Position numbers and translations under genes: made by a program. The notes beneath the pieces were generated by a model, which was not told the DNA's origin, made no database searches, and saw nothing but the letters and a program-made list of their open reading frames with translations. This document shows, piece by piece, positions 8,008-23,252 of a DNA stretch of 23,252 nucleotides; within the stretch, counting starts at the first letter, position 1, and each line of letters opens with the position of its first letter. Source of the stretch: a virus. The stretch is taken from positions 1 through 23,252 of IMG/VR virus record IMGVR_UViG_3300044678_001571; one strand, 5' to 3'.

Positions 8008-9699
8008 ATGGAACAAACAAGAATAGGCATAGATAATTTTTTTACGTACGATGGATTATATCCGACAACTTTAAAAAAAGTTGATCCTACGGATATAGCT
8101 ATGAATTCATTTCAAGTATATAAAAATTGGACTATTACATCAGGAAGTGTTACTTCTAGTGCATTACCATTAACTGCAATTTATACAGACACGTTGCCAA
8201 TACTAGATACTGAATTAACATATAATGATGCTGCTAATATTGACGGAAGTTTGCAAACAGTTATTTATTATTCACTCAATCATTTATTTTATCGATATAA
8301 AAATGAACCGTTTATTACATATGGTCCGCCTAATATAACAAAAACAAAAAAAGCATTATTTCAATCAGCTTCAGTTTTATCAATTCCACAAGTTAAAATT
8401 GGCGAACGAATAAAATCTACATCATTTACGTTTACTTCTTCAGTATCTGGATCATTTGCTTCAGATTCATATGAAAATATTTATGATACAAGTTTTAATA
8501 CGGCAGCAATCGTATCAGGTTCTGTATTTTATGAAGGATTTAATGAATATTTTGATATATCACGTACGCCGTATAATACGTCAGGAGTTACATATGTTTC
8601 GGGAATACCTACTACTACGGGACAACAACGAAGTATTGGGTATGCTGCAAATTTTAACGGATCGGGGTCAATTGATCGTATATTAGATGGATTATATGAT
8701 CGAGATCATGATTATGCAATATCATTTTTTGTTAGTGCATCAGATACCAATGTTTTTAAACCGCAAATTTTACTTAGTAAACGAACATCTATACATCAAA
8801 AACAATGGCCATTTGAGATTGTTGCTGTAGGAACTAGTCCAAGTATTGTATGTACAGTTGGTGGGAATCGTGACGTTATTTATCCTGACATTCCGGGTGT
8901 TAACTTACAATTGGGCTACCCAACTTTACGTGTTACTGCATCTATTTCTAATAGTTGGACTCATATACTTTTTCAAAAATCTGGTAGTGCTATTCAACTT
9001 TATACTAACGGAACATTAGTAGCATCACAATCTAGTACATTATTACAACCAACAACTAATCCGTTATCTGCATCGATTCGAATTGATAATAATGATCCGT
9101 TAAAGATAGGCGGATTTTCAATTTCAGGAAGCCAAATATTTAATGCAGGGTATCCTACCGATATAAAGAATTTGTTGCATGATTCTAATTACATTGGAAA
9201 ACTAGATGAAATACGAATTTTTAATAAAGCATTGACAAGTACAGAAATTGGTTATTTAGCTGATAGATCGGAAGGTGGTACTATGTTACAAACTAGAAAT
9301 GTTGGTACCGTGATGCCTGCTCAGGGTTTAGTTGTATTTTCTAGTCCCGATTATCGTTTTCAAAATTTATTAAATGCGTCCTTTACTGCATCATATAAAA
9401 GTACCAAAACAATTCACGAACTAAGTGCATTAGTTAGAATAGACGCGGGAGAATTTAATTTGTCTACAAATGTTACACTAACTAAAGATGATAATTATAC
9501 ATATCAAAGTTTCGTAACAGGTAGCAATTTTACACCTTATATTACTACAATTGGATTGTATAATGCTAATGGTCAATTATTAGCTATTGGAAAATTAGCA
9601 CAACCAATAAAAAAACGAGATGATGTAGATTTAAATTTTTTAATACGTTTAGATTTAGATCGAAATATTTTATTTTCTAATCCAGGATTTGCAAAATGA
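8008..9699 (+). CDS. Tail/baseplate protein with LamG (ConA-like) domain
   Basis: 563 aa. Residues about 175-430 have the pattern of a LamG/concanavalin A-like sandwich: 'FNGSGSIDRI', a central 'YAISFFVSASD', 'SWTHILFQKSGSAIQLYTNG', and the classical closing strand 'GKLDEIRIFNKAL' at residues 397-409. The last 70 residues are the module shared with the preceding gene ('YITTIGLYN' from residue 511, then 'LLAIGKLAQPI'). LamG domains usually bind glycans or proteins, so this could be a virion part that contacts the host surface, held in place by the shared C-terminal module. The ATG at 8008 follows the terminator stem. The stop TGA overlaps the start of the kinase-like gene (ATGA, 9696-9699), which implies coupled translation. 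Confidence 0.74.
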   Translation: MEQTRIGIDNFFTYDGLYPTTLKKVDPTDIAMNSFQVYKNWTITSGSVTSSALPLTAIYTDTLPILDTELTYNDAANIDGSLQTVIYYSLNHLFYRYKNEPFITYGPPNITKTKKALFQSASVLSIPQVKIGERIKSTSFTFTSSVSGSFASDSYENIYDTSFNTAAIVSGSVFYEGFNEYFDISRTPYNTSGVTYVSGIPTTTGQQRSIGYAANFNGSGSIDRILDGLYDRDHDYAISFFVSASDTNVFKPQILLSKRTSIHQKQWPFEIVAVGTSPSIVCTVGGNRDVIYPDIPGVNLQLGYPTLRVTASISNSWTHILFQKSGSAIQLYTNGTLVASQSSTLLQPTTNPLSASIRIDNNDPLKIGGFSISGSQIFNAGYPTDIKNLLHDSNYIGKLDEIRIFNKALTSTEIGYLADRSEGGTMLQTRNVGTVMPAQGLVVFSSPDYRFQNLLNASFTASYKSTKTIHELSALVRIDAGEFNLSTNVTLTKDDNYTYQSFVTGSNFTPYITTIGLYNANGQLLAIGKLAQPIKKRDDVDLNFLIRLDLDRNILFSNPGFAK

Positions 9700-10232
9700 T
9701 ACGTTTAAAAAATTTACTTAAAGAATTATCGCAATCTGATATTCAACGTTGTTTAGATAAGATACAAAACAAACAATTTCGATTAATTGGTGCTGGTGAT
9801 AATGGTCGTGTTTATGAAATTGATGGCGAAGATAAAACTTTTAAAATTACGCAAGAACAGGATGAATATAAAGTTGCAAATATTATCGTAAATCGATATA
9901 CTGAATTTACAACGTTTATTCCGGTATATTATGTTGATGGAAAAAATATGTATATAATGGCAAATGCATCTGAATTGCCGGATCGTTTACGTAAAGTAAT
10001 TGATATGTTCATGGATGATTTTTATTCGTTTGCTAGAGAAAAAGGCGGAGAAGTTTCTATCTTTGATTTTATTCAAGAAACGGATACTATAGATCCATTA
10101 ATGGATAATTTTTTAACTGCATTACAATCGGATGTTGAAAAATTAAATATAAAAGAATTTGATCTAGATCTAGATTTTCGATCAGATAATATTATGTTAT
10201 GGAACGATAAAATGGTTATGGTTGATTGGTAA
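9696..10232 (+). CDS. Minimal kinase-fold protein (Ser/Thr kinase or APH-like)
   Basis: 178 aa. The start overlaps the stop of the upstream structural gene by four bases. The N-lobe signature is clear: a glycine-rich loop 'LIGAGDNGRVYEI' (G32, G34, G37) and the ATP-binding lysine in 'FKIT' (K50). A catalytic loop follows: 'LDFRSDNIML', with D160 and N165 five apart as in HRDxxxxN. A metal-binding aspartate in 'VDW' (D177) lies 17 residues after D160, close to the usual spacing. The protein ends one residue after that aspartate, so the activation segment and the usual C-lobe are absent. No frameshifted remainder is present downstream. The N-terminus MIRLKNLLKEL resembles the short capsid-targeting leaders of T4 internal proteins (cleavage after L-x-E). 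Whether it phosphorylates protein, sugar or a small molecule cannot be told. Confidence 0.7.
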   Translation: MIRLKNLLKELSQSDIQRCLDKIQNKQFRLIGAGDNGRVYEIDGEDKTFKITQEQDEYKVANIIVNRYTEFTTFIPVYYVDGKNMYIMANASELPDRLRKVIDMFMDDFYSFAREKGGEVSIFDFIQETDTIDPLMDNFLTALQSDVEKLNIKEFDLDLDFRSDNIMLWNDKMVMVDW

Positions 10233-10917: not shown

Positions 10918-11859
10918 GTGAAGAATCTTAAACTGTTACAATTATTAGAATCTGTTTTAGGTAAAGGTAAATCTACTTCAGGTAATAATATTGCATTCTT
11001 TTCTCCGTTTACTTCACATTACAAGCCTAAATTAGAAATTGATATCAATACTAACCACGCCGGAGAAAATCCATGGCATTGTTGGATATCTGATAAAAAA
11101 GGCCGCACTATATCTAGTTTGTTTAAACAAATGGGATTGCCTAAAGAACGGTTTGAACAGCTAGCAAAAATAATCGAATCATCTCGATATCGCAATACCA
11201 CTGAAACAAAAACAGTTACTGCAATCGCATTGCCAGAACATTATGCTCCATTATGGATTGCAAAAACAACACCTGATTATAGAAATGCAATTCATTATTT
11301 AAAACAACGTGGAGTAACTATGTTGGATATTTTAAAGTATCGAATTGGGTATTGTGAACAAGGTGAATATTCTGGCAAAATAATTATTCCTAGTTATGAT
11401 GATGCGGGACAATTGAATTATTTTGTATCAAGAGCGTATTATCGAGCAGATAAACAAAAACATAAGAATCCTAAAATTTCAAAAGACATTATTGGATTTG
11501 ATTTAACAATAAATTGGTCACAGCCAATTATTCTTTGTGAAGGTTCATTTGATGCAATTGCAATTAAACGCAATGCAATTCCATTGTTTGGTAAAATCAT
11601 TCAACCAGCATTGCAAAAGAAAATCATTGAAAAACGAGTACGTGATATCTATATTTGTTTGGATGCTGATGCACTTCGAAATGCAATACAAATTGCAGAA
11701 CGTTTCATGGCAGAAGGCTTAAATGTTTATTTTATACGACTAGAAGATGCAGATGCATCGGAATTAGGTTTTGAACAAATTACAGAAATTATCAACAATA
11801 CTGATATATTAACTTTTGAGCGCATCATGGCACTTAAAATGGACATGTTATGGACATAA
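10918..11859 (+). CDS. DNA primase (TOPRIM, T4 gp61/DnaG-like) with degenerate zinc ribbon
   Basis: 313 aa, GTG start; the reading frame upstream has no ATG, GTG or TTG before a stop at 10876. It would make RNA primers for lagging-strand synthesis, working with a replicative helicase not in this window. The TOPRIM core is intact: 'ILCEGSFDAIA' (E208, D212) and 'ICLDADA' (D249, D251). Before it, 'GKIIIPSYDDAGQLNYFVSR' (from residue 153) matches the conserved strand of phage primases. The N-terminus keeps the frame of a CHC2-type zinc ribbon, but the expected Cys positions read S29-P-F-T32 and C55-W-I-S58, so only one of four ligands remains. The gene follows the 180-bp hairpin segment and overlaps the recombination gene by ten bases, which suggests co-expression. 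The function is firm for the TOPRIM part; activity without zinc is uncertain. Confidence 0.82.
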   Translation: MKNLKLLQLLESVLGKGKSTSGNNIAFFSPFTSHYKPKLEIDINTNHAGENPWHCWISDKKGRTISSLFKQMGLPKERFEQLAKIIESSRYRNTTETKTVTAIALPEHYAPLWIAKTTPDYRNAIHYLKQRGVTMLDILKYRIGYCEQGEYSGKIIIPSYDDAGQLNYFVSRAYYRADKQKHKNPKISKDIIGFDLTINWSQPIILCEGSFDAIAIKRNAIPLFGKIIQPALQKKIIEKRVRDIYICLDADALRNAIQIAERFMAEGLNVYFIRLEDADASELGFEQITEIINNTDILTFERIMALKMDMLWT

Positions 11860-14800
11860 AACGAATAGATTCTCCTTTAGAAAAAATTGACAAAATTTTT
11901 CATATCTCCGATGTACACATACGTACATTGAAACGGCATCGAGAATACCGACAAGTATTTAAAACATTATTTGATCATATTGAAACGCATGCAACAGGAA
12001 ATAGCGTTGCTGTAGTTACCGGTGATATTGTGCATAGCAAATTAGATATGTCTCCGGAACTAGTTCAAATGCTTGTAGATTTCTTTAACGGATTTACAAT
12101 TCCTACAATTGTTATTTTAGGTAATCATGATATGAATCTAAATAACATGCACAGGATTGATGCAATATCTCCAGTATTAGATGTTATTAAAAATCCAAAC
12201 ATTCATTTTATTAAAGATAATGGTTTGTTTGAATTCGGCGGCATAACATGGAATCATATGGCAGTTGATAAAACACCTGCTGATTACATTCGAGCAAAAG
12301 ATTTTGACGCTTCATACAAAATTGCATTACACCATGGTGCTGTTAATACTGCTAAAACTGATATTGGATATCAAATATCAAATGAACATGTAGGTGTTGA
12401 TTTGTTTGAAGGACATGACATTACGTTATTAGGTGATATACATAAGCCGGCACAATTCTTAGATGCTGCGAAGACAGTTGCATATCCTGGTTCATTGATT
12501 CAACAAAATCATGGCGAAGCATTAATCCATGGAATATTGGTTTGGGACGTGGAACAACGCAGTGCAGAGTTTCACGAAATACACAATGAATATGGTTATG
12601 TAACTATAGAAACTCAAGGAGCTGCAATCATTAATGCACCAGCTCGGATGCCACAACGTCCTCGAGTTCGTATTAAATTTAATGAAACGAGTGCAGCAGA
12701 TATGAAAAAACTTATTGCTGCAATTCGTAAAAAATATGATGTAGAAGACATTACAATTCAAAGAACAATTGGTAGTGCTGCAATCGCAACGTCATCTAGT
12801 TTAGCTATTGGAAACGTACGCGACGTTGAATATCAAAACACCTTATTGGCAGATTATATTGATTCAAATTTTCCACAAGCAACTGCAGAAGAAGTCGATG
12901 CTATTCGACATATCAACCGCACAATTAATTCAAAATTACCTGCAGTAGAATCAATACGTCATACAACATGGCATCCCGTATCATTTGAATTTGACAACAT
13001 GTTTTCATATGGCGAAGGCAATGTTTTAAATTTTGAAAACTTATCTGATGTATGTGGTTTATTTGCTGCAAATACATCTGGAAAATCTAGTTTGCTTGAT
13101 GCAATTACTTATACTATATTTGATAAATGTAGCAAAACAAGCAAAGCAAATGAAGTTTTAAATAACAAAAAAACATGGTTCCGTGGTGTATTTCGTTTTG
13201 AAATGAATGGTGTCATGTATACCATAGAACGACGAGGTACTCAAAATAAAAAGAAAGAGACACACGTTAAAGTTGATGTAGAATTTTATACCGATTCAGA
13301 AAATTTAAACGGAGAAGAACGCAGTGAAACAAATAAAAATATTCGTAGATATTTAGGCACATATGATGATTTTATTTTAACTGCATTTTCACTTCAAGCT
13401 GACAACAACAATTTTATTGAAAAATCACAAAAAGAACGCAAAGACTTATTATCACAATTTTTAGATATTACAGTATTTGAACAACTTTATCAGTTAGCGG
13501 CAGATGAAATTAAAGAAACATCAGGACGTTTAAAGGATTATAAGAAAACAGATTTTGCTGAAATTATTGTGCAAGCTGATTCAGTTATTTCAGAAAACCA
13601 AGACAATATTATTTCATTAGAACAACAAGAAGATGCTCAACAAGAAACTAGAAACAATCTACAAGAACAAATTGTTTCGTTGATTGAAACAAAACTTCCA
13701 ACTACATATGATGGTCCAAATATCAATGAATTGCAACGACAAGAACGAGATTTAATTGCTACAATTGAATCAATTCAACAAGACATTGAAACGGCAGAAC
13801 AAGACCTAGAAACATTAACTGCAGAAATTGAAACTCAAGAAGAACAATTGACTCAATTCGATGTTAATGATATTACATCAAAAACAACACAATACGCAAA
13901 AATAGAACATTCAGTTAACACACTTTTACAAAAATATCGACAACAAAAGGAAATCGTAAATGGAAAACAAGAAAAAATTAAACATCTTGAGTCTCACGAA
14001 TATGATCCAAACTGCAAATACTGTACATCTAACGTTTTCGTTCAAAATGCAATCGAAGCACAAAATACAATTGAAACGGATAGAACAATATTAAATGATT
14101 TGCAACAACGCATTGAAGATCTCAATACAGAATTACAATCATTAAAACCAGTATTTGAATTAGAAACTCAGTATAATAAACTTAAAAATACTATTGCAAC
14201 TAAAAAAATTACATTAGAACGAAATGAATTGCAGTTACAAATATTAGAAAGCGATTTACAAACTCGAGAATCTGAATTAGAAACTACCGTAGAACGACAA
14301 GAATCATTTCGTAAAAATGAAACAGCAATTACACACAATCAACATGTTGATACGCAAATCAATGAATGTAAACAACAAATTGCAACATGTACAGATCAAA
14401 TAAAAAACATACAAGAACAAATCAAATCACTCTTTGGTGCAATTGAAGTTGCAAAAACAAATAAAGGTGCTGCAATAGAACAATTAGAACGTTATCGTCA
14501 ATTAGAAACTGAATACAAAGCATATGGATATTATTTAGAATCAGTTAAGCGAGATGGCATTCCATATGAATTAATTTCAAAAGCTGTTCCTAAAATTGAA
14601 TCTGAAATAAACAATGTACTTAATCAGATTGTTGATTTTAACATGGTATTAAATACTGATGGCAAAAATATTAACGGATATATCATTTATGATGAAGATA
14701 ACTATTGGCCGTTGGAATTAACGTCTGGTATGGAACGTTTTATTTCGTCATTAGCAATTCGAATAGCACTTATCAATGTTTCGGCATTGCCTCGTCCTAA

Positions 14801-14996
14801 TTTTATTGCAATCGACGAAGGTTGGGGTTCATTAGATGCAGAACATATTTCATCAGTTGTAAATTTGTTTGATTATTTCCGAACTAAGTTTGATTTCTCA
14901 ATTATTATTTCGCATGTTGATTCTATGCGCGATATGGTTGATAACTTAATTGAAGTAAATAAAACAAACGGATTTAGCAAGATTAATCATGTGTAA
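11850..14996 (+). CDS. Fused Mre11-Rad50 / SbcD-SbcC recombination nuclease (T4 gp47-gp46 fusion)
   Basis: 1048 aa. Residues 15 to about 340 are an Mre11/SbcD/gp47 metallophosphatase: 'HISDVH' (D21, H23), 'TGDIVHS' (D59), 'GNHD' (91-94), 'LHHG' (H161, H162) and 'GDIH' (195-198). From about residue 370 a Rad50/SbcC/gp46 ATPase follows. Its Walker A is 'AANTSGKSS' (K412). Long Glu/Gln-rich coiled coils (about 570-890) flank a zinc-hook C-x-x-C (C722, C725). After them come a signature-like 'LTSGMERF' (957-964), a Walker B 'FIAIDEGWGSLD' (D989, E990) and a closing 'IIISHVDS'. T4 encodes these two proteins separately. The complex resects DNA ends for recombination-dependent replication. The start overlaps the primase gene by ten bases. 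All catalytic residues appear present and no frameshift is seen. Confidence 0.93.
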   Translation: MDIKRIDSPLEKIDKIFHISDVHIRTLKRHREYRQVFKTLFDHIETHATGNSVAVVTGDIVHSKLDMSPELVQMLVDFFNGFTIPTIVILGNHDMNLNNMHRIDAISPVLDVIKNPNIHFIKDNGLFEFGGITWNHMAVDKTPADYIRAKDFDASYKIALHHGAVNTAKTDIGYQISNEHVGVDLFEGHDITLLGDIHKPAQFLDAAKTVAYPGSLIQQNHGEALIHGILVWDVEQRSAEFHEIHNEYGYVTIETQGAAIINAPARMPQRPRVRIKFNETSAADMKKLIAAIRKKYDVEDITIQRTIGSAAIATSSSLAIGNVRDVEYQNTLLADYIDSNFPQATAEEVDAIRHINRTINSKLPAVESIRHTTWHPVSFEFDNMFSYGEGNVLNFENLSDVCGLFAANTSGKSSLLDAITYTIFDKCSKTSKANEVLNNKKTWFRGVFRFEMNGVMYTIERRGTQNKKKETHVKVDVEFYTDSENLNGEERSETNKNIRRYLGTYDDFILTAFSLQADNNNFIEKSQKERKDLLSQFLDITVFEQLYQLAADEIKETSGRLKDYKKTDFAEIIVQADSVISENQDNIISLEQQEDAQQETRNNLQEQIVSLIETKLPTTYDGPNINELQRQERDLIATIESIQQDIETAEQDLETLTAEIETQEEQLTQFDVNDITSKTTQYAKIEHSVNTLLQKYRQQKEIVNGKQEKIKHLESHEYDPNCKYCTSNVFVQNAIEAQNTIETDRTILNDLQQRIEDLNTELQSLKPVFELETQYNKLKNTIATKKITLERNELQLQILESDLQTRESELETTVERQESFRKNETAITHNQHVDTQINECKQQIATCTDQIKNIQEQIKSLFGAIEVAKTNKGAAIEQLERYRQLETEYKAYGYYLESVKRDGIPYELISKAVPKIESEINNVLNQIVDFNMVLNTDGKNINGYIIYDEDNYWPLELTSGMERFISSLAIRIALINVSALPRPNFIAIDEGWGSLDAEHISSVVNLFDYFRTKFDFSIIISHVDSMRDMVDNLIEVNKTNGFSKINHV

Positions 14997-15022: not shown

Positions 15023-17761
15023 ATGAAACGCAAAGAAGCAATATATTCTGGATTAGATTTAATTCCTGTTTTATTTGAAGACACATCACCAACTTCGCCT
15101 GACTATTTTCAAATAACAGAATTTCCAGTACGCTTAACTGCAGGAAAAAATTTATTTAAGTTTCAAGGAAATCCAACAAATTTAAAAGTTGGAAGTTTAC
15201 TAGGAATTGAAATATTAGATTATAATGGCGATCCAATTTATCATGAAGTAGTAGATTATCTAGATCAAGACAAATCTCGCGTAATAGCAATATATGTTTA
15301 TGATACAACATCTCCGGGTGATTGTACTGTAATTATTACAGGTGAAGCAGTAAATATTGAAGGACAACAAGTTACTGCAGATTGGCAAAATAGAACTAAC
15401 GTACGGTGGACTCGATCATGTCCGGTTAATCCAGTAACAGCAAATGAATCTGAAATTATTTTTGAATCATTACCAACTGTATTAGTTTCAGAACAAATTG
15501 GAGTACAATTAGATCGAATATATCCAAATAACACACAATTTCCAACTTATAGTACCGGCACGATTACATATTTTTCGTATAATGAACAACCAGCAATTTC
15601 TATAACCGGCGGACAATTTGATGCAGATATGACTGGCGGTACTATTACAGTTTCAAATCCAATTAATCCTCGTCCTACGGCTACATATCCTATATCTACA
15701 ACGGCGTATGTTTCTAAGATATCAAAGGTACTATCGCCATCATTGGCATTATTAGAAACAGAGTATACAGCATTTAGCAGCCAAAGCGTATATATTCACA
15801 CATATGATTCATTTGATGCATCTACATTTTCTATAAAATATGAAGCAACGCCAACTTACGTTCCAACAGAAAATTCACAATCATTTGCACTCATACAAAT
15901 TGAAAATTTACAACCAGCAACTGGAGATATTGCACGCATTAAAGTTTTTACAAACAATAAAGGTACAGTTGGTACTTGGGAATTAGTTAATGATTTTGAA
16001 TTAGAAGATACGGAAATTTTTATTTCTAGTACATCATCACTGTTTCCAGATCAATCAATTGGAATATTTACATCTCAAAGCGTTATCAATACATATTGGC
16101 AACCTCATACATATCAAAATGGGTCTGAAATAACTCCAACTACATTGCAATGGATTACATCGTCATTATCAAATGCAATGTTAATTTCTAGTTCAATTAA
16201 TATTGCGGCTCCTAACTCCGTACAGGTTGCACAAATAAGTTCATCATATCAAGGAATTTTTTTAAAAGATTCTTCATATAAAATTTCTTTAGATGCATTA
16301 GGTACAACAATTTCTGCAGCTACTGCAAAATTATCAATATATTTATCTGGTAGCAGCTTTTATCAAGATCCTACCGATTATTTTAATCAATCATTTCCTG
16401 TAAAATTTGGTAAACGAATTGGCGAATTAACATCATATGGAAATCAAAGATTTGATGATCAAATATTTAGTTTTGAAGCAGACTTTGATGGTACTGGTGT
16501 ATTATTATTAGTAGTAGAATCAGGAGAATGGCAAGTTTCAGATATACACGTTACCACAGATAATGATGCCGGATATTCTCCTAATTATACAAGAATTAAA
16601 ACGCCAATTCAAACTACACATAAAATTGACAATCAAATTTCATTTAAAACAGAATATTACAATGTAGCCGGAGTAAAAAGCAAACAAATATCATATGTTT
16701 ATGATAAAAATTGGCAAGGCGGCAATCGATATATTGATGGTGATTATTCAATGCTTACTGGTTCTTTATATGTTGCTGATTCATTAAATAGTGGCGTTGC
16801 AATTAGTGGATATCCTAATTCTGGTTTTATTAGATCATTAGGATATGAAGGATTTGCTGCAGGATTTCCTGGATTTTTACTGTGGTCTGGTTCGGCTCTG
16901 CCAAATAGTGCAGGAACAAAAGGCGGCGCAGCATATAGCGGCGTTGGATTAGAACTTTATGCAAATACTTCAAGTTATTTTAGATATGCAACTGCTAATT
17001 CAGAAATAGATGTTCGTACGAATAGATTCTTTTTTGGAAATCCTGCATCAACTTTTATTAGCGGTGCTAATGGAAATGTTGAAATTTCTGCAAGTGGTTT
17101 CCACTTAACAGCACAAGGAAATGTAACGGCATCATCATTTCTTGCAGTGCAAAATGGCGAAGTTTTATTTGATTCTAACAATGAATTTGTAGATGGATTG
17201 AATATAGGACGAGTTGTATATTTCGATCAATCTGAATATACATTTAACTTAGCTAACATATCTGGTAGTTCTCCTTTACCGACATTTACAACCGGGTCCG
17301 TTTTATCTGGACCGTCATTTCATGTATTCATATTGCCGGGCGAAACGAGAATGCAAATGTCATGTACATGGCAAATTGACCGTACGGATAATATTGGATT
17401 ACCTAATAAATCATTTAATGTATACGCAACTGTAATGAATGCAGTAACTGGTAGTTATACGGGACTTACATCATACGGTATTTTTAATAGCGGATCCACA
17501 TTTACATCACCTATTAATTTAGCAGGAACAACGGTACCAGAAAATTCACAAAGATCGGGAGCTGTTACTGGATTGTACGGCAGTATATCAGACTTAACAT
17601 TAACTAATCGTCAAGGATATTATGTATTAGTACATACATCTATAGTATACTCCGGTGGAACTGCAGCATTAAGTGGCACGTTAAAATTAAAAAACTTTGT
17701 ATTTAGAACAAGTAGAACGGTAGGCGGAAGTATAATTGCACCAACGAATCCGGTATCATAA
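15023..17761 (+). CDS. Large virion structural protein, tail/fibre type
   Basis: 912 aa. The N-terminal part has 'FPVRLTAGKNLFKFQGNPTN' from about residue 34 and 'GIEILDYNGDPIYHEV', a style common in large baseplate and tail proteins of marine myophages. The middle is a chain of Ser/Thr/Tyr-rich beta segments. The C-terminal part has fibre-like short repeats ('GNVEISASGFHLTAQGNVTA', about residues 688-707), then 'VQNGEVLFDSNNEF', and ends in a beta-rich domain. No signal peptide, membrane helix or enzyme motif was seen. It lies between recombination genes and a nucleotidyltransferase, apart from the main structural block, and has its own junction motif. No strong ribosome-binding site stands before the ATG (AGATATTTCACACG). 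Specific role unknown. Confidence 0.65.
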   Translation: MKRKEAIYSGLDLIPVLFEDTSPTSPDYFQITEFPVRLTAGKNLFKFQGNPTNLKVGSLLGIEILDYNGDPIYHEVVDYLDQDKSRVIAIYVYDTTSPGDCTVIITGEAVNIEGQQVTADWQNRTNVRWTRSCPVNPVTANESEIIFESLPTVLVSEQIGVQLDRIYPNNTQFPTYSTGTITYFSYNEQPAISITGGQFDADMTGGTITVSNPINPRPTATYPISTTAYVSKISKVLSPSLALLETEYTAFSSQSVYIHTYDSFDASTFSIKYEATPTYVPTENSQSFALIQIENLQPATGDIARIKVFTNNKGTVGTWELVNDFELEDTEIFISSTSSLFPDQSIGIFTSQSVINTYWQPHTYQNGSEITPTTLQWITSSLSNAMLISSSINIAAPNSVQVAQISSSYQGIFLKDSSYKISLDALGTTISAATAKLSIYLSGSSFYQDPTDYFNQSFPVKFGKRIGELTSYGNQRFDDQIFSFEADFDGTGVLLLVVESGEWQVSDIHVTTDNDAGYSPNYTRIKTPIQTTHKIDNQISFKTEYYNVAGVKSKQISYVYDKNWQGGNRYIDGDYSMLTGSLYVADSLNSGVAISGYPNSGFIRSLGYEGFAAGFPGFLLWSGSALPNSAGTKGGAAYSGVGLELYANTSSYFRYATANSEIDVRTNRFFFGNPASTFISGANGNVEISASGFHLTAQGNVTASSFLAVQNGEVLFDSNNEFVDGLNIGRVVYFDQSEYTFNLANISGSSPLPTFTTGSVLSGPSFHVFILPGETRMQMSCTWQIDRTDNIGLPNKSFNVYATVMNAVTGSYTGLTSYGIFNSGSTFTSPINLAGTTVPENSQRSGAVTGLYGSISDLTLTNRQGYYVLVHTSIVYSGGTAALSGTLKLKNFVFRTSRTVGGSIIAPTNPVS

Positions 17762-17783: not shown

Positions 17784-19835
17784 ATGAATAAAATAACAGT
17801 TTTATTTCCCGGTGGATTTAAACCATTAACAGGAGCTCATTTAGCATTAGCACAACGATATGCAGAATCTCCGCAAGTAGGTCGAGTAATAATATTAATT
17901 GGACCAAATTCTAGAGACGGTATTACTAGAGAACAAAGCATTGAAATGTTTAATTTACTTAATGATAATCCTGATATCATTATTCAACCTACACAACACA
18001 ATTCACCAATTGTTGCAGCATACGAATATTTGTTTGATTTGCCATCTGATGCAAAAGGACGTTATGCAATGGCAGCATCTACCAAAGGAGATGATTATGT
18101 TAGAGCAAAAGCTTTTGTACCCAATGTAGATAAATATGCAACGATTGGTGACAAAAAAGGACGTAAAATTCCAATGGGAATTGATGCAACAGAATTAAGT
18201 ATTGATGTAGATCCAGAAACATATGCAAACGGAATGCCGATATCAGCAACTACGGTACGACAATCAATTGCAGATCGAGATTATGAAACATTTCGTGCAT
18301 CATATCCTCAATTTAAAGATGCAGTTGTAAAAAATGCATGGCAAATTGCAACGGGATTACAAGAAGCATTGTTTTCAAAAGAATGGTGGGCAAAACAATT
18401 ACAAGAAGAAGTTGATGAAATGTTTGCTGCTACAATGAACAATGCAGAAACACGTCGACATAAAAATAAGATCAATAAATTAAACAAATTTTTAGATAAA
18501 CAAGATGATAGATCATTTGTATATGATTTTGATAAATTTCCAAAAACTGTATATGGTGCAAAATTAATGGAAGGTGGCGCAGCTGGACATATGGCACACC
18601 CATGGGATGATCATGGATTAACTTTTAATGATATGAAAGAAATAGTATCTCGTGCATTAGAAGGGCGTTTAGATATTGAAGCTGCAGTTACAGAAAAAAC
18701 CGATGGTCAAAACATTCAAGTTACTTGGAAAAATGGTCAACCCGGATTTGCTCGCGGCAAAGGAACTATTATTAATCCAATGACTCCTGCAGAATTAATT
18801 GCTGATTTCCAACGCAAACAACAAAAAGCTATAGCAGAAAAAGGAGCTGAAGCGGGAGTAAATTATCAACGAGTAGTAGATGCATATCAAGCTTGTGCTG
18901 AAGATTTAACAGAATCATTGCAACGTATACCTGCAGATAGATTAGCACAAATATTTAAAAATGGTCGAGTATTTGCAAACATGGAAATTATTTATCCTGC
19001 AACTAAAAATGTTATATCATATGATAAAGCACATTTGCAATTTCATAATTTAGTTGAATATGATGAACAAGGCAATATAGTCGAAACAGATTTAACCGGT
19101 GGTGCAATGGTTCAACAAATTATTCAAGATGCAAATGCACATATGCAAAAAACATTTTCATTTATTCCACCTCAAAAAATTAAAATTGGTAAAATATCTA
19201 ATTTTGAAGATCAACAAGCTGCATTCTTTAATGAAATTGATCAACTTAGATCTAAGTTCGGTTTAAAAGAAACAGATCAAATAGCTGAGTATCATAAAGC
19301 GTGGTGGCAAGATGTTATTAAAACACAAGCTGATAAAATGGGATATGAAATTCCAGAAAATGTGTTAAATGCATTAATAAATCGTTGGGCGTTCTTTGAT
19401 AAGTCGGAAAGTATAACCACACTTAAAAAACAAATTACAAATCCAGAATTCTTAAATTGGGTTCAAGAATTTGACAAAAATGAATTCAAACGATATTACA
19501 AACAAAACATGGAACCGTTTGAAACGTTATTTTTACGGTTAGGAGCAGTAGCATTAAAAAATGCAGAAAATTTCTTAGCAGCAAATCCATCAAAAACAGT
19601 ACAAACAATTAAACAAGAATTAGCTGAACTTATTAGAGAATTGCAAACCAATCCAAATCCATCAACCGTTGCAAAATTAGAATTAGAACTTAAACGCATT
19701 GAACGATTAGGTGGATTTGATCAAATTGTTCCTTCGGAGGGTGTTGTATTTACATATGGCGGAAATACATACAAGCTTACCGGAGCATTTGCACCTGTTA
19801 ATCAGATACTAGGAGTATTGAAATACGCACGATGA
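17784..19835 (+). CDS. Bifunctional nucleotidylyltransferase-ligase fusion
   Basis: 683 aa from the ATG at 17784. An in-frame ATG at 17736 lies inside the previous gene and before the junction motif, so it is rejected. Residues 1 to about 175 form a cytidylyltransferase/NMNAT-type fold: 'FPGGFKPLTGAH' (a variant HxGH reading T16-G-A-H19) and 'ISATTVR' (153-159). After a helical linker (about 195-260), residues about 280-683 look like the adenylyltransferase core of RNA/DNA ligases. Motif I is 'EKTDGQNI' (K305 as the likely AMP acceptor, D307, G308), followed by 'FARGKGT'. A motif III-like 'FANMEIIYP' contains E401, motif IV is 'EGVVF' (E652) and motif V is 'YKLTG' (K664). Both catalytic cores seem complete. 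The substrates are unknown: NAD synthesis, end repair of RNA, or nucleotide-modified protein are all possible. Confidence 0.82.
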   Translation: MNKITVLFPGGFKPLTGAHLALAQRYAESPQVGRVIILIGPNSRDGITREQSIEMFNLLNDNPDIIIQPTQHNSPIVAAYEYLFDLPSDAKGRYAMAASTKGDDYVRAKAFVPNVDKYATIGDKKGRKIPMGIDATELSIDVDPETYANGMPISATTVRQSIADRDYETFRASYPQFKDAVVKNAWQIATGLQEALFSKEWWAKQLQEEVDEMFAATMNNAETRRHKNKINKLNKFLDKQDDRSFVYDFDKFPKTVYGAKLMEGGAAGHMAHPWDDHGLTFNDMKEIVSRALEGRLDIEAAVTEKTDGQNIQVTWKNGQPGFARGKGTIINPMTPAELIADFQRKQQKAIAEKGAEAGVNYQRVVDAYQACAEDLTESLQRIPADRLAQIFKNGRVFANMEIIYPATKNVISYDKAHLQFHNLVEYDEQGNIVETDLTGGAMVQQIIQDANAHMQKTFSFIPPQKIKIGKISNFEDQQAAFFNEIDQLRSKFGLKETDQIAEYHKAWWQDVIKTQADKMGYEIPENVLNALINRWAFFDKSESITTLKKQITNPEFLNWVQEFDKNEFKRYYKQNMEPFETLFLRLGAVALKNAENFLAANPSKTVQTIKQELAELIRELQTNPNPSTVAKLELELKRIERLGGFDQIVPSEGVVFTYGGNTYKLTGAFAPVNQILGVLKYAR

Positions 19836-20739: not shown

Positions 20740-21375
20740 ATGTCAAAAAAGTTACAAAACATTAAAGCTGTTCAACAAATGTTGGACGGCACTCATAAGT
20801 TTCAAACCAAAAAAACTGTAGGGTTTTCTGATGCAAAAAACAAATCAGAACATCGAGAAGTTGGTGATGTTTGGGAAGAAACTGATGCAAGTGGAAACGT
20901 ATATGTTGTAGAACAGCGTGAAGGTTTTCGAATTCGTAAAACAAAAAATTCAGATATTTTTCAATCTATAAGAGATGAATTACGTGCATTTCCTAATTGT
21001 AGAAAAGACGTATGCACATGTGTTGGTACGCATCATTTAGATCAACAAATGAGAAAGATTCATGGTATGTGTTTTGATTGTGTAATTGAAATGGAACATG
21101 AATTAAAAAATACCGGAACATATGAAGAATACGAACGCAATAAAATTCATGAAAATGCATTAGCATGGTTACGTGATGCAGAACGAGATGTTGAACTCTT
21201 AAAACAAGCATATACCGAATCAATGAAATTTGTAAGTAATAGTGAAGGCGTTACAGAAACTTGGTCAGCAAAAATGACGCCTGAGGAATTTGAAAATACA
21301 ATACAAAAAGAATGGGATAAATTCAAAGAAAATTTTATAAAACGATTAAATGGAGAATCAGATGAAAACAATTAA
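20740..21375 (+). CDS. Cys-rich probable zinc-binding protein, function unknown
   Basis: 211 aa, six bases after the preceding gene. I do not recognise the family. A cluster of possible metal ligands lies mid-protein: C87, C92, C94, H98, H99, H108, C111 and C114, with the last two as C-F-D-C. This suggests one zinc site of ribbon or treble-clef type. The N-terminal part has 'GDVWEETDASGNVYVVEQRE' (a beta hairpin by appearance), and the C-terminal half is helical and acidic ('ALAWLRDAERDVELLKQAY'). It is cytoplasmic by appearance. No ribosome-binding site stands out before the ATG (AAAGTTAC). The stop lies beyond the start of the next gene (14-base overlap), so the two are probably co-translated. 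Confidence 0.62.
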   Translation: MSKKLQNIKAVQQMLDGTHKFQTKKTVGFSDAKNKSEHREVGDVWEETDASGNVYVVEQREGFRIRKTKNSDIFQSIRDELRAFPNCRKDVCTCVGTHHLDQQMRKIHGMCFDCVIEMEHELKNTGTYEEYERNKIHENALAWLRDAERDVELLKQAYTESMKFVSNSEGVTETWSAKMTPEEFENTIQKEWDKFKENFIKRLNGESDENN

Positions 21376-22080: not shown

Positions 22081-23252
22081 ATGTCACAAAATATAAAACA
22101 GATTATACAACAGCAGTACACGATGTGTGCTAAAGATCCTGTTTTTTTTATGCGACAATATTGTTATATACAACATCCTAAACGTGGTAAGATTAAATTT
22201 AATTTATATCCTTTCCAGGAAGATACATTAACTGAATTACGAGATAATCGTTACAATGTAATATTAAAGTCTCGTCAGTTAGGTATATCAACATTATCAG
22301 CTGGCTTTGCTCTTTGGAGCATGTTATTCAAAGAAGATTTTAACGTACTTGTTATTGCAACAACTCAAGAAGTAGCAAAAAACTTAGTAACAAAAGTACG
22401 GGTAATGCATGACAATTTACCTAGTTGGTTAAAAGGAAATATTGAAGCAGATAATAAGCTTTCCTTAAAATTTAAAAATGGCTCACAAATTAAAGCAGTT
22501 TCATCCGCAACCACAGGAGCACGTTCAGAAGCATTATCGTTGCTAATTATAGATGAGGCCGCATTCATTCGAAACATTGAAGAAATTTGGATAGCATCGC
22601 AAGCAACATTATCAACGGGTGGTGGTGCTATCGTATTGTCTACACCAAATGGTGTTGGTAATTGGTTTCATTCGGTATGGTCAGAAGCTGAGCAAGAAAT
22701 TAATGGATTTCATACAATTAAACTACATTGGACCGTACACCCAGACCGCGATCAGCAATGGCGAGATGAACAAACTCAATTGTTAGGAGAACGAGGTGCA
22801 GCACAAGAATGTGATTGCGACTTTATTTCATCTGGTCATACTGTAATAGATGGGGCTATACTGCTAGATTATGAAAATAAATGTAGCGAACCAATTGAAC
22901 GTAGAGGCTTTGATAACGGCTATTGGATTTGGGAATATCCAAACTATGAAAAAAATTATATAGTAGTAGCTGACGTCGCTCGAGGTGATGGTGCTGACTG
23001 GTCTACTTTTCATGTTATCGATGTAGAAAATGTATCGCAAGTTGCCGAATACAAAGGAAAAATGCCACCTAAGGATTTTGGTAATATGCTTGTGTCAGTT
23101 GCAACAGAATGGAACAATGCATTACTAGCAATTGAAAATGCCAATATTGGTTGGGCAGCAATACAACCGGCGTTAGACCGAGGATATGAAAATTTATTTT
23201 ATACATATAAAGATGATGGATATGTTGATATAGATGTACAACTTAAAAAAGG
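22081..23252 (+). CDS. Terminase large subunit (T4 gp17-like), 3' end beyond window
   Basis: At least 390 aa are visible and the frame is open to the window end. It packages DNA into the prohead using an ATPase and cuts concatemers with an RNase H-fold nuclease. The ATPase motifs are a deviant Walker A 'LKSRQLGIST' (62-71; Ile69 where T4 has Lys), Walker B 'LLIIDEA' (D158, E159) and coupling motif 'STPNG' (187-191). The nuclease shows 'VADVARGDGADWS' (D298) and 'AIEN' (E352); the third acidic residue would lie beyond the window. Walker A begins about 100 residues earlier than in T4 gp17, so the N-terminal extension is shorter. No terminase small subunit is visible upstream. The ATG follows the previous stop by one base. 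Confidence 0.93.
   Translation, partial: MSQNIKQIIQQQYTMCAKDPVFFMRQYCYIQHPKRGKIKFNLYPFQEDTLTELRDNRYNVILKSRQLGISTLSAGFALWSMLFKEDFNVLVIATTQEVAKNLVTKVRVMHDNLPSWLKGNIEADNKLSLKFKNGSQIKAVSSATTGARSEALSLLIIDEAAFIRNIEEIWIASQATLSTGGGAIVLSTPNGVGNWFHSVWSEAEQEINGFHTIKLHWTVHPDRDQQWRDEQTQLLGERGAAQECDCDFISSGHTVIDGAILLDYENKCSEPIERRGFDNGYWIWEYPNYEKNYIVVADVARGDGADWSTFHVIDVENVSQVAEYKGKMPPKDFGNMLVSVATEWNNALLAIENANIGWAAIQPALDRGYENLFYTYKDDGYVDIDVQLKK

Follow-up and report, generated by a model that had tools for sequence, protein, structure and literature searches.

A fused nucleotidyltransferase and RNA-ligase-type protein with prohead-protease-type sites: a candidate virion-delivered tRNA-repair polyprotein of T4-like phages

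The prohead protease gp21 of phage T4 cleaves after L/I-X-E, and T4 capsid-targeting peptides, such as that of IPIII, direct proteins into the head (PMC9026906). Phage polyvalent proteins, in the parts of their description considered here, combine several conflict-related domains in one chain, are encoded with virion genes and are predicted to be packaged and injected, and their 2H domains never associate with RNA ligases (PMC5512222, Iyer et al. 2017). Jumbo phages, according to the portion of PMC7824862 considered, encode RNA ligases alongside kinases, phosphatases and CCA-adding enzymes as separate infected-cell proteins. The gene analysed here lies in the IMG/VR virus record IMGVR_UViG_3300044678_001571 (positions 1 to 23,252; this whole stretch of 23,252 nucleotides is called the window) and encodes a 683-amino-acid (aa) protein in which a nucleotidyltransferase and an RNA-ligase-type domain are joined by a linker with prohead-protease-type sites. 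The favoured reading, to which we assign a probability of roughly 0.6, is that this protein is the two-enzyme minimal form of an RNA or tRNA repair set that would be packaged in the head, released by the prohead protease and injected against host anticodon nucleases. The chances are about even for the wider proposal that T4-like phages possess a virion-delivered, protease-cut tRNA-repair polyprotein, and that in one lineage the protease frees order-swapped pieces of the ligase, which then reassemble into an active enzyme. The features of the gene are as follows; an arrow marks the predicted cut.

17784..19835, + strand: complete gene for the 683-aa protein, with the nucleotidyltransferase and the RNA-ligase-type domain on either side of the linker that holds the protease-type sites
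17784..18353, + strand: NadM-like HIGH-family nucleotidyltransferase domain, aa 1-190 (AlphaFold2, Foldseek, profile of relatives)
17808..17840, + strand: PGGFKPLTGAH, in the place of the HxGH motif, aa 9-19
18240..18260, + strand: ISATTVR motif, aa 153-159
18357..18368, + strand: protease-type site 1, LQE↓A, aa 192-195
18366..18407, + strand: internal capsid-targeting-like segment ALFSKEWWAKQLQE, aa 195-208, with conserved FSKxWWxxxLxE, resembling MKKYKPLTKEWWDEEIKREILNE and modelled as disordered
18564..18575, + strand: protease-type site 3, LME↓G, aa 261-264
18573..19835, + strand: RNA-ligase-type adenylyltransferase domain, aa 264-683 (AlphaFold2 pLDDT 88.6; best 21 PDB matches by Foldseek)
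18693..18707, + strand: motif I, EKTDG, with predicted catalytic K305; E-K-x-D-G is invariant
18972..18992, + strand: motif III, FANMEII, aa 397-403
19737..19751, + strand: motif IV, EGVVF, aa 652-656
19770..19784, + strand: motif V, YKLTG, aa 663-667

The reading frame is uninterrupted over all 683 aa and contains every motif that a sequence-only reading of the window had named when it proposed that a HIGH-family nucleotidyltransferase is joined to a ligase-type adenylyltransferase; the fusion is real. Relatives are encoded in 290 stretches of viral contigs, and the motifs of both domains, including PGGFKPxTGAH, are kept in 34 representatives of less than 90% identity; because they are conserved across these relatives, the motifs of the window protein are not due to chance. 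Most of the sequences are metagenomic fragments and are mutually related. That earlier reading was right about both enzymes; the protease-type sites, the head-gene setting and the polyprotein family had escaped it.

Of 54 distinct linkers of the window type, 53 contain an [LIVM]xE↓[ASTE] site followed by FSKxWWxxxLxE. Before the ligase, each of the 76 distinct junctions of the E type combines L or I at P3 with E at P1 and G at P1'; P2 takes 11 different residues, the upstream flank varies, and the background of [LI]xEG inside the domains is 2.4e-5 per position. The AlphaFold2 model of the window protein, made with 67 aligned rows as input, consists of two folded units, a HIGH-type domain and a separate ligase-type domain, with low-confidence stretches at 193-219 and 242-268 and a disordered junction. 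In the major capsid proteins of the same phages, V-K-E↓A/S, I-D-E↓S/A or I-S-E↓A presumably lies near the position of the T4 gp23 cut. Processing of the polyprotein by the head protease at the linker sites is strongly indicated by these patterns, and since the linker holds conserved prohead-protease-type sites, the two halves are probably separated.

Long relatives start with such peptides, ending in L/I-x-E (for example MNKLTEWLTKPFLDE↓ and MSLKKLVEEITKPILQE↓), and a stand-alone ligase starts with MKFLKSYEEFLNE↓NLILE↓GG; IpI of T4, as read from the T4 genome and with the cut position deduced from the motif, starts with MKTFKEFTSTTTPVSTITE↓A. The linker motif of the window protein, FSKEWWAKQLQE, resembles MKKYKPLTKEWWDEEIKREILNE↓, the N-terminus of a split-off ligase fragment, and the linker looks as if two signal-bearing genes had been joined. 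Packaging into the head is likely.

At nine loci (L121, L130, L134, L159, L162-L164, L169 and L172), the E of the junction site is replaced by M, giving LLLM↓GGAYGHM. The ATG stands nine bases behind AAGGAG or AGGGAG in all nine, of which several are near-identical, leaving about four independent cases; of 157 E-type loci, only 7 have a Shine-Dalgarno-like sequence at that place. At the M-type loci, translation initiated internally seems to substitute for the cut, so that the same ligase N-terminus would result.

The ligase is split in 13 contigs (L171, L218-L220, L224, L225, L227-L229, L236, L237, L240 and L242), at a point close to the beta-turn that follows the motif I strand. Motif Ia and all that comes after it are fused behind the nucleotidyltransferase, and the motif I part is a separate gene about 0.5-2 kb downstream, so that the order is swapped; a stop codon follows directly after the motif I strand in this N fragment. 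Each fragment is headed by its own site, L/I-x-E↓GGAYGHM in one and LNE↓G, LSE↓G, MSE↓G, ITE↓AT or ITE↓K in the other (junctions on the contig), and intact ligases have no L/I-x-E-type site at the corresponding break point. The C fragments are 65-100% alike, and the split therefore probably had a single origin. Trans-splicing at the RNA level or a known intron was considered and rejected, since three loci gave no Rfam match and a stop codon closes the N fragment. The order-swapped encoding is sensible if the parts are freed by proteolysis and then assembled, and the split ligase is a natural test case for cleavage and reassembly.

The ligase half, folded alone by AlphaFold2, reached a pLDDT of 88.6 and a pTM of 0.85. 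All 21 of its best Foldseek matches in the PDB are ATP-dependent ligases and nearly all are RNA ligases (T4 Rnl1, Rnl2, Trl1, archaeal and Naegleria RNA ligases, and an Aquifex 'putative ATP-dependent DNA ligase'); the matches in BFVD include RNA ligases as well. Comparison of 11 diverse members, down to about 35% identity, showed EKxDG, ARxK (motif Ia), the E of motif III, EGxVF and the K of motif V to be invariant. The fold of the C-terminal half, which had been singled out beforehand as a check on the ligase assignment, is accordingly predicted to be of the ligase type. No LigA occurs among the 50 Foldseek matches listed, and no LigA-type NAD+-binding (Ia) domain is recognisable in this half; an NAD+-dependent LigA ligase was rejected for lack of a LigA fold among those matches. 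A profile built from the ligase alignment found chance matches only in the PDB. The ligase half falls outside Pfam family PF09414, of which it is a distant relative at most. Of the earlier suggestions, RNA end repair against anticodon nucleases is now the best supported of three, given the ATP-dependent RNA ligase folds and the CCA-adding, HD and kinase modules of relatives, and RNA repair is the probable function on this comparative evidence.

For the first half, the fold search recovered NadM, NadD and PPAT, and the profile of distant relatives matched archaeal NMN (nicotinamide mononucleotide) adenylyltransferase best (E=9e-7), then NadM-Nudix (3e-6), in agreement with the HIGH-type assignment made from the motifs. 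Across the family the HxGH motif varies as HRGH, HSGH, HDGH, TLGH, GPHH and GIHH, with TGAH in the window type; most marine relatives have GPHH and a few have HRGH or HSGH. The last His of HxGH and the R of SxTxxR alone are invariant; in HxGH, positions one and three vary. The TxAH variant pointed out from the window alone is thus present, but it is one of several in the family and not special to this protein. By homology, NMN or a related 5'-phosphate is the most likely acceptor for adenylylation. A stand-alone relative of this domain, with HDGH and about 27% identity over 174 aa, is encoded in Prevotella Lak phages (L085, 6001-6624).

Marine phages encode the ligase at the C-terminal end of long proteins, of 1000-2463 aa. 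Among twenty of these that were scanned, the nucleotidyltransferase occurs in 19, a kinase of AAA_33/Zeta type in 13 and a domain of CCA-adding type in 2. L167 encodes the 2463-aa protein, in which a kinase is followed by a CCA-adding nucleotidyltransferase, an HD domain, the HIGH nucleotidyltransferase and the ligase; the CCA part of this protein matches solved CCA-adding enzymes at 1.6e-32. A CCA-HD part was found by scan at 27 loci; where the contig is long enough, it is in most cases either fused to the nucleotidyltransferase-ligase or encoded directly upstream. Kinase, CCA-adding, HD and ligase modules are together the activities that would be expected in tRNA end-healing, CCA repair and sealing. 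The kinase is encoded alone in cultured T4-like phages, for example HTVC008M. The ligase is a gene of its own, apart from the nucleotidyltransferase, in LR756500, and many relatives have large unrelated domains between the two. A scan with the stand-alone ligase as query found only two relatives, and one with the ParB-nucleotidyltransferase-ligase protein found none. Other arrangements of the nucleotidyltransferase were noted: with Zn_protease-type and Pol-beta-like parts (L160, 2483-6094), behind a ParB_N-type domain (L083, 4483-7230), and, in a 653-aa protein, behind a region with an ENLDG sequence (L084, 7253-9214).

Under the favoured reading, the polyprotein would be made late, together with the head genes, and its capsid-targeting-like segments would take it into the prohead core, where a gp21-type (S77) prohead protease would cut at L/I/V-x-E and free both enzymes inside the head. 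The freed enzymes would enter the new host with the injected DNA, and the ligase would re-seal tRNAs cleaved by host anticodon nucleases ahead of phage gene expression, assisted in the richer relatives by the kinase, CCA-adding and HD modules. In this scheme we infer the cleavage, the packaging, the injection, tRNA as the target and NMN as a substrate.

Several points weigh against this scheme. At its N-terminus the window protein lacks a targeting peptide, the similar segment being internal, and it has no kinase, CCA or HD module; the best solved sequence match of the kinase of relatives, seryl-tRNA(Sec) kinase, has only E=0.002; in the PDB, the Foldseek matches of the ligase have modest E-values (4.5e-3 at best) and low TM-scores; and the cut-off of 27 bits for Pfam RNA_ligase PF09414 is not reached, five window-type records scoring 12.6-16.4 bits. 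In addition, the GG that follows the L/I-x-E site is as strictly conserved as the site, and part of the motif may therefore serve the ligase. This last point and the missing N-terminal peptide would suit RNA-repair enzymes of the ordinary kind, made late and acting in the cytoplasm without being packaged or cut, with L/I-x-E↓GG as a structural part of the ligase N-terminus; the RNA ligases of T4 are separate genes (T4 record), and they are not known to be packaged. We regard this as unlikely, since P3 and P1 are fixed amid a freely changing P2 and upstream flank, both AlphaFold2 models show the segment as disordered, split ligases have new L/I/M-x-E sites at the break, and long relatives have targeting-like N-termini.

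The sequence-only reading had favoured a stable bifunctional enzyme, in which an NMN adenylyltransferase half makes NAD+, the ligase half uses it as adenylate donor, and the NMN is recycled. The NadM-like character of the first half and the fusion of both domains in all window-type members agree with such an enzyme, but the ligase resembles ATP-dependent RNA ligases best, conserved protease-type sites lie in a disordered linker between the halves, and the gene arrangement in LR756500 and the large intervening domains of many relatives separate the two activities; together with the missing LigA features, this makes self-recycling highly improbable. The same NadM-like profile matches, closest to archaeal NadM NMN adenylyltransferase, would also fit an injected NAD+ defence, in which the nucleotidyltransferase replenishes NAD+ in the face of NADase-type defences, with the ligase carried along in the polyprotein as an unrelated passenger. 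Phage NAD+ salvage is described as a counter-defence in the portion of PMC9503650 considered. Only 2 of 17 records (apparently one phage, many records being partial) have a NadV-type partner, and this partnership is therefore not general; the catalytic first His is replaced in most members, and the common extra modules are of tRNA type, which leaves the NAD+ defence a doubtful alternative. It is also conceivable, at very long odds, that the nucleotidyltransferase adds AMP to an RNA 5'-phosphate, forming a cap-like or pre-adenylated end for use by the ligase or for protection of the RNA. Both enzyme families form 5',5'-pyrophosphate AMP adducts, the domains are linked across distant phages, and the HxGH variants suggest a changed substrate; against this, the ligase is expected to make its own adenylylated RNA, and no RNA-binding feature was identified in the nucleotidyltransferase domain.

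The setting of the gene in the window was compared with that of its relatives. The neighbouring genes are:

15023..17761, + strand: 912-aa upstream gene, probable structural protein, usually adjoining the polyprotein gene in window-type contigs
20740..21375, + strand: Cys-rich neighbour gene, kept beside the polyprotein gene in both family branches
22081..23250, + strand: T4-type terminase large subunit, running off the window end

The Cys-rich neighbour is near the polyprotein gene in 80/80 window-type and 85/90 other loci, and the terminase in 69/80 and 84/90, many contigs being short. A role of the Cys-rich protein, encoded upstream of the terminase, in the head or in packaging is conceivable. 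All 17 records of relatives contain, above the curated cut-off, a T4-type portal as well as an S77 protease of gp21 type; the window contig itself stops before the expected protease region. At window 11850-14996, a 1048-aa protein combines a metallophosphoesterase part with one that is SbcC-like and is an apparent SbcD-SbcC (gp47-gp46) fusion. A 178-aa protein (window 9696-10232) appears kinase-like by eye, without library support; its start, MIRLKNLLKE, resembles MIKLKNLLWEE, the targeting-like N-terminal sequence encoded by small genes that lie next to the split ligase in L218 and L220. The starts of 11 window genes between 9696 and 22081 have A/T-rich leaders without Shine-Dalgarno-like sequences, which would fit a Bacteroidota host.

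Viral metagenomes contain the family widely, though it is barely named. For the window protein, Pfam gave a match to CTP_transf_like (E=0.16) and none to a ligase, and NCBIfam gave no match. Matches to PHROG 302 'virion structural protein' (E=0.025) and, by phmmer, to a Pictet-Spenglerase were judged to be due to chance, and DUF6267 was dismissed as parent family for want of a match above the cut-off. Only three GenBank records of phages have the ligase, those of Microcystis phage Mel-JY01 and two uncultured huge phages; the Mel-JY01 relative (WWT39297.1), whose predicted cut lies between IIAE and GGLGGHMNHPF, is annotated as 'cytidylyltransferase like protein', and database entries matching the family are named only 'Cytidyltransferase-like domain-containing protein'. 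Neither the nucleotidyltransferase-ligase fusion nor a prohead-protease-cut RNA-repair polyprotein was found described in the parts of PMC7824862, PMC9503650 and PMC5512222 considered, and further open-licence literature yielded no other candidate description; an earlier account elsewhere is possible. If the favoured reading is true, RNA repair would belong to the injected first strike and would not be an early gene product, and a phage could disarm anticodon nucleases ahead of its first transcript; the role of the prohead protease would reach beyond head maturation to the production of enzymes out of a polyprotein; and the L/I-x-E cut rule would be a route to the injected enzymes of uncultured T4-like phages.

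Among known systems, NadM (archaeal MJ0541 and Synechocystis NadM-Nudix) has its fold in common with the first half, and relatives share the GRFQPFHxGH-type motif and SGTxxR. The window type, however, has TGAH in place of an intact HxGH, which is mostly altered in the relatives too, the phage domain is fused to a ligase whereas NadM systems are fused to Nudix or kinase, and the NCBIfam cut-offs are far from reached. The polyvalent proteins (PMC5512222) are likewise multi-domain chains encoded with virion genes, the present family lying near terminase and having up to five catalytic modules in relatives and two domains in the window member, but no RNA-ligase member is described in the parts of that account considered. 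The RNA-repair sets of jumbo phages, as given in the considered portion of PMC7824862, comprise similar activities, which are here fused or adjacent and lie in the head gene cluster. T4 Rnl1/Rnl2, archaeal Rnl and fungal Trl1 share motifs I, Ia, III, IV and V and the overall fold with the phage ligase, which differs from them in having no sequence-level PDB match, a large helical insertion between motifs III and IV, no visible OB-fold C-terminus (the sequence stops right after motif V) and a place in the head gene cluster. The internal head proteins of T4 that are cut by gp21 have in common with the family the L/I-x-E sites, the head gene cluster and a gp21-type protease in the same phages, and with the long relatives the targeting-like N-termini; unlike them, the family consists of large multi-enzyme chains with the sites between domains, and in the window member the targeting-like segment is internal.
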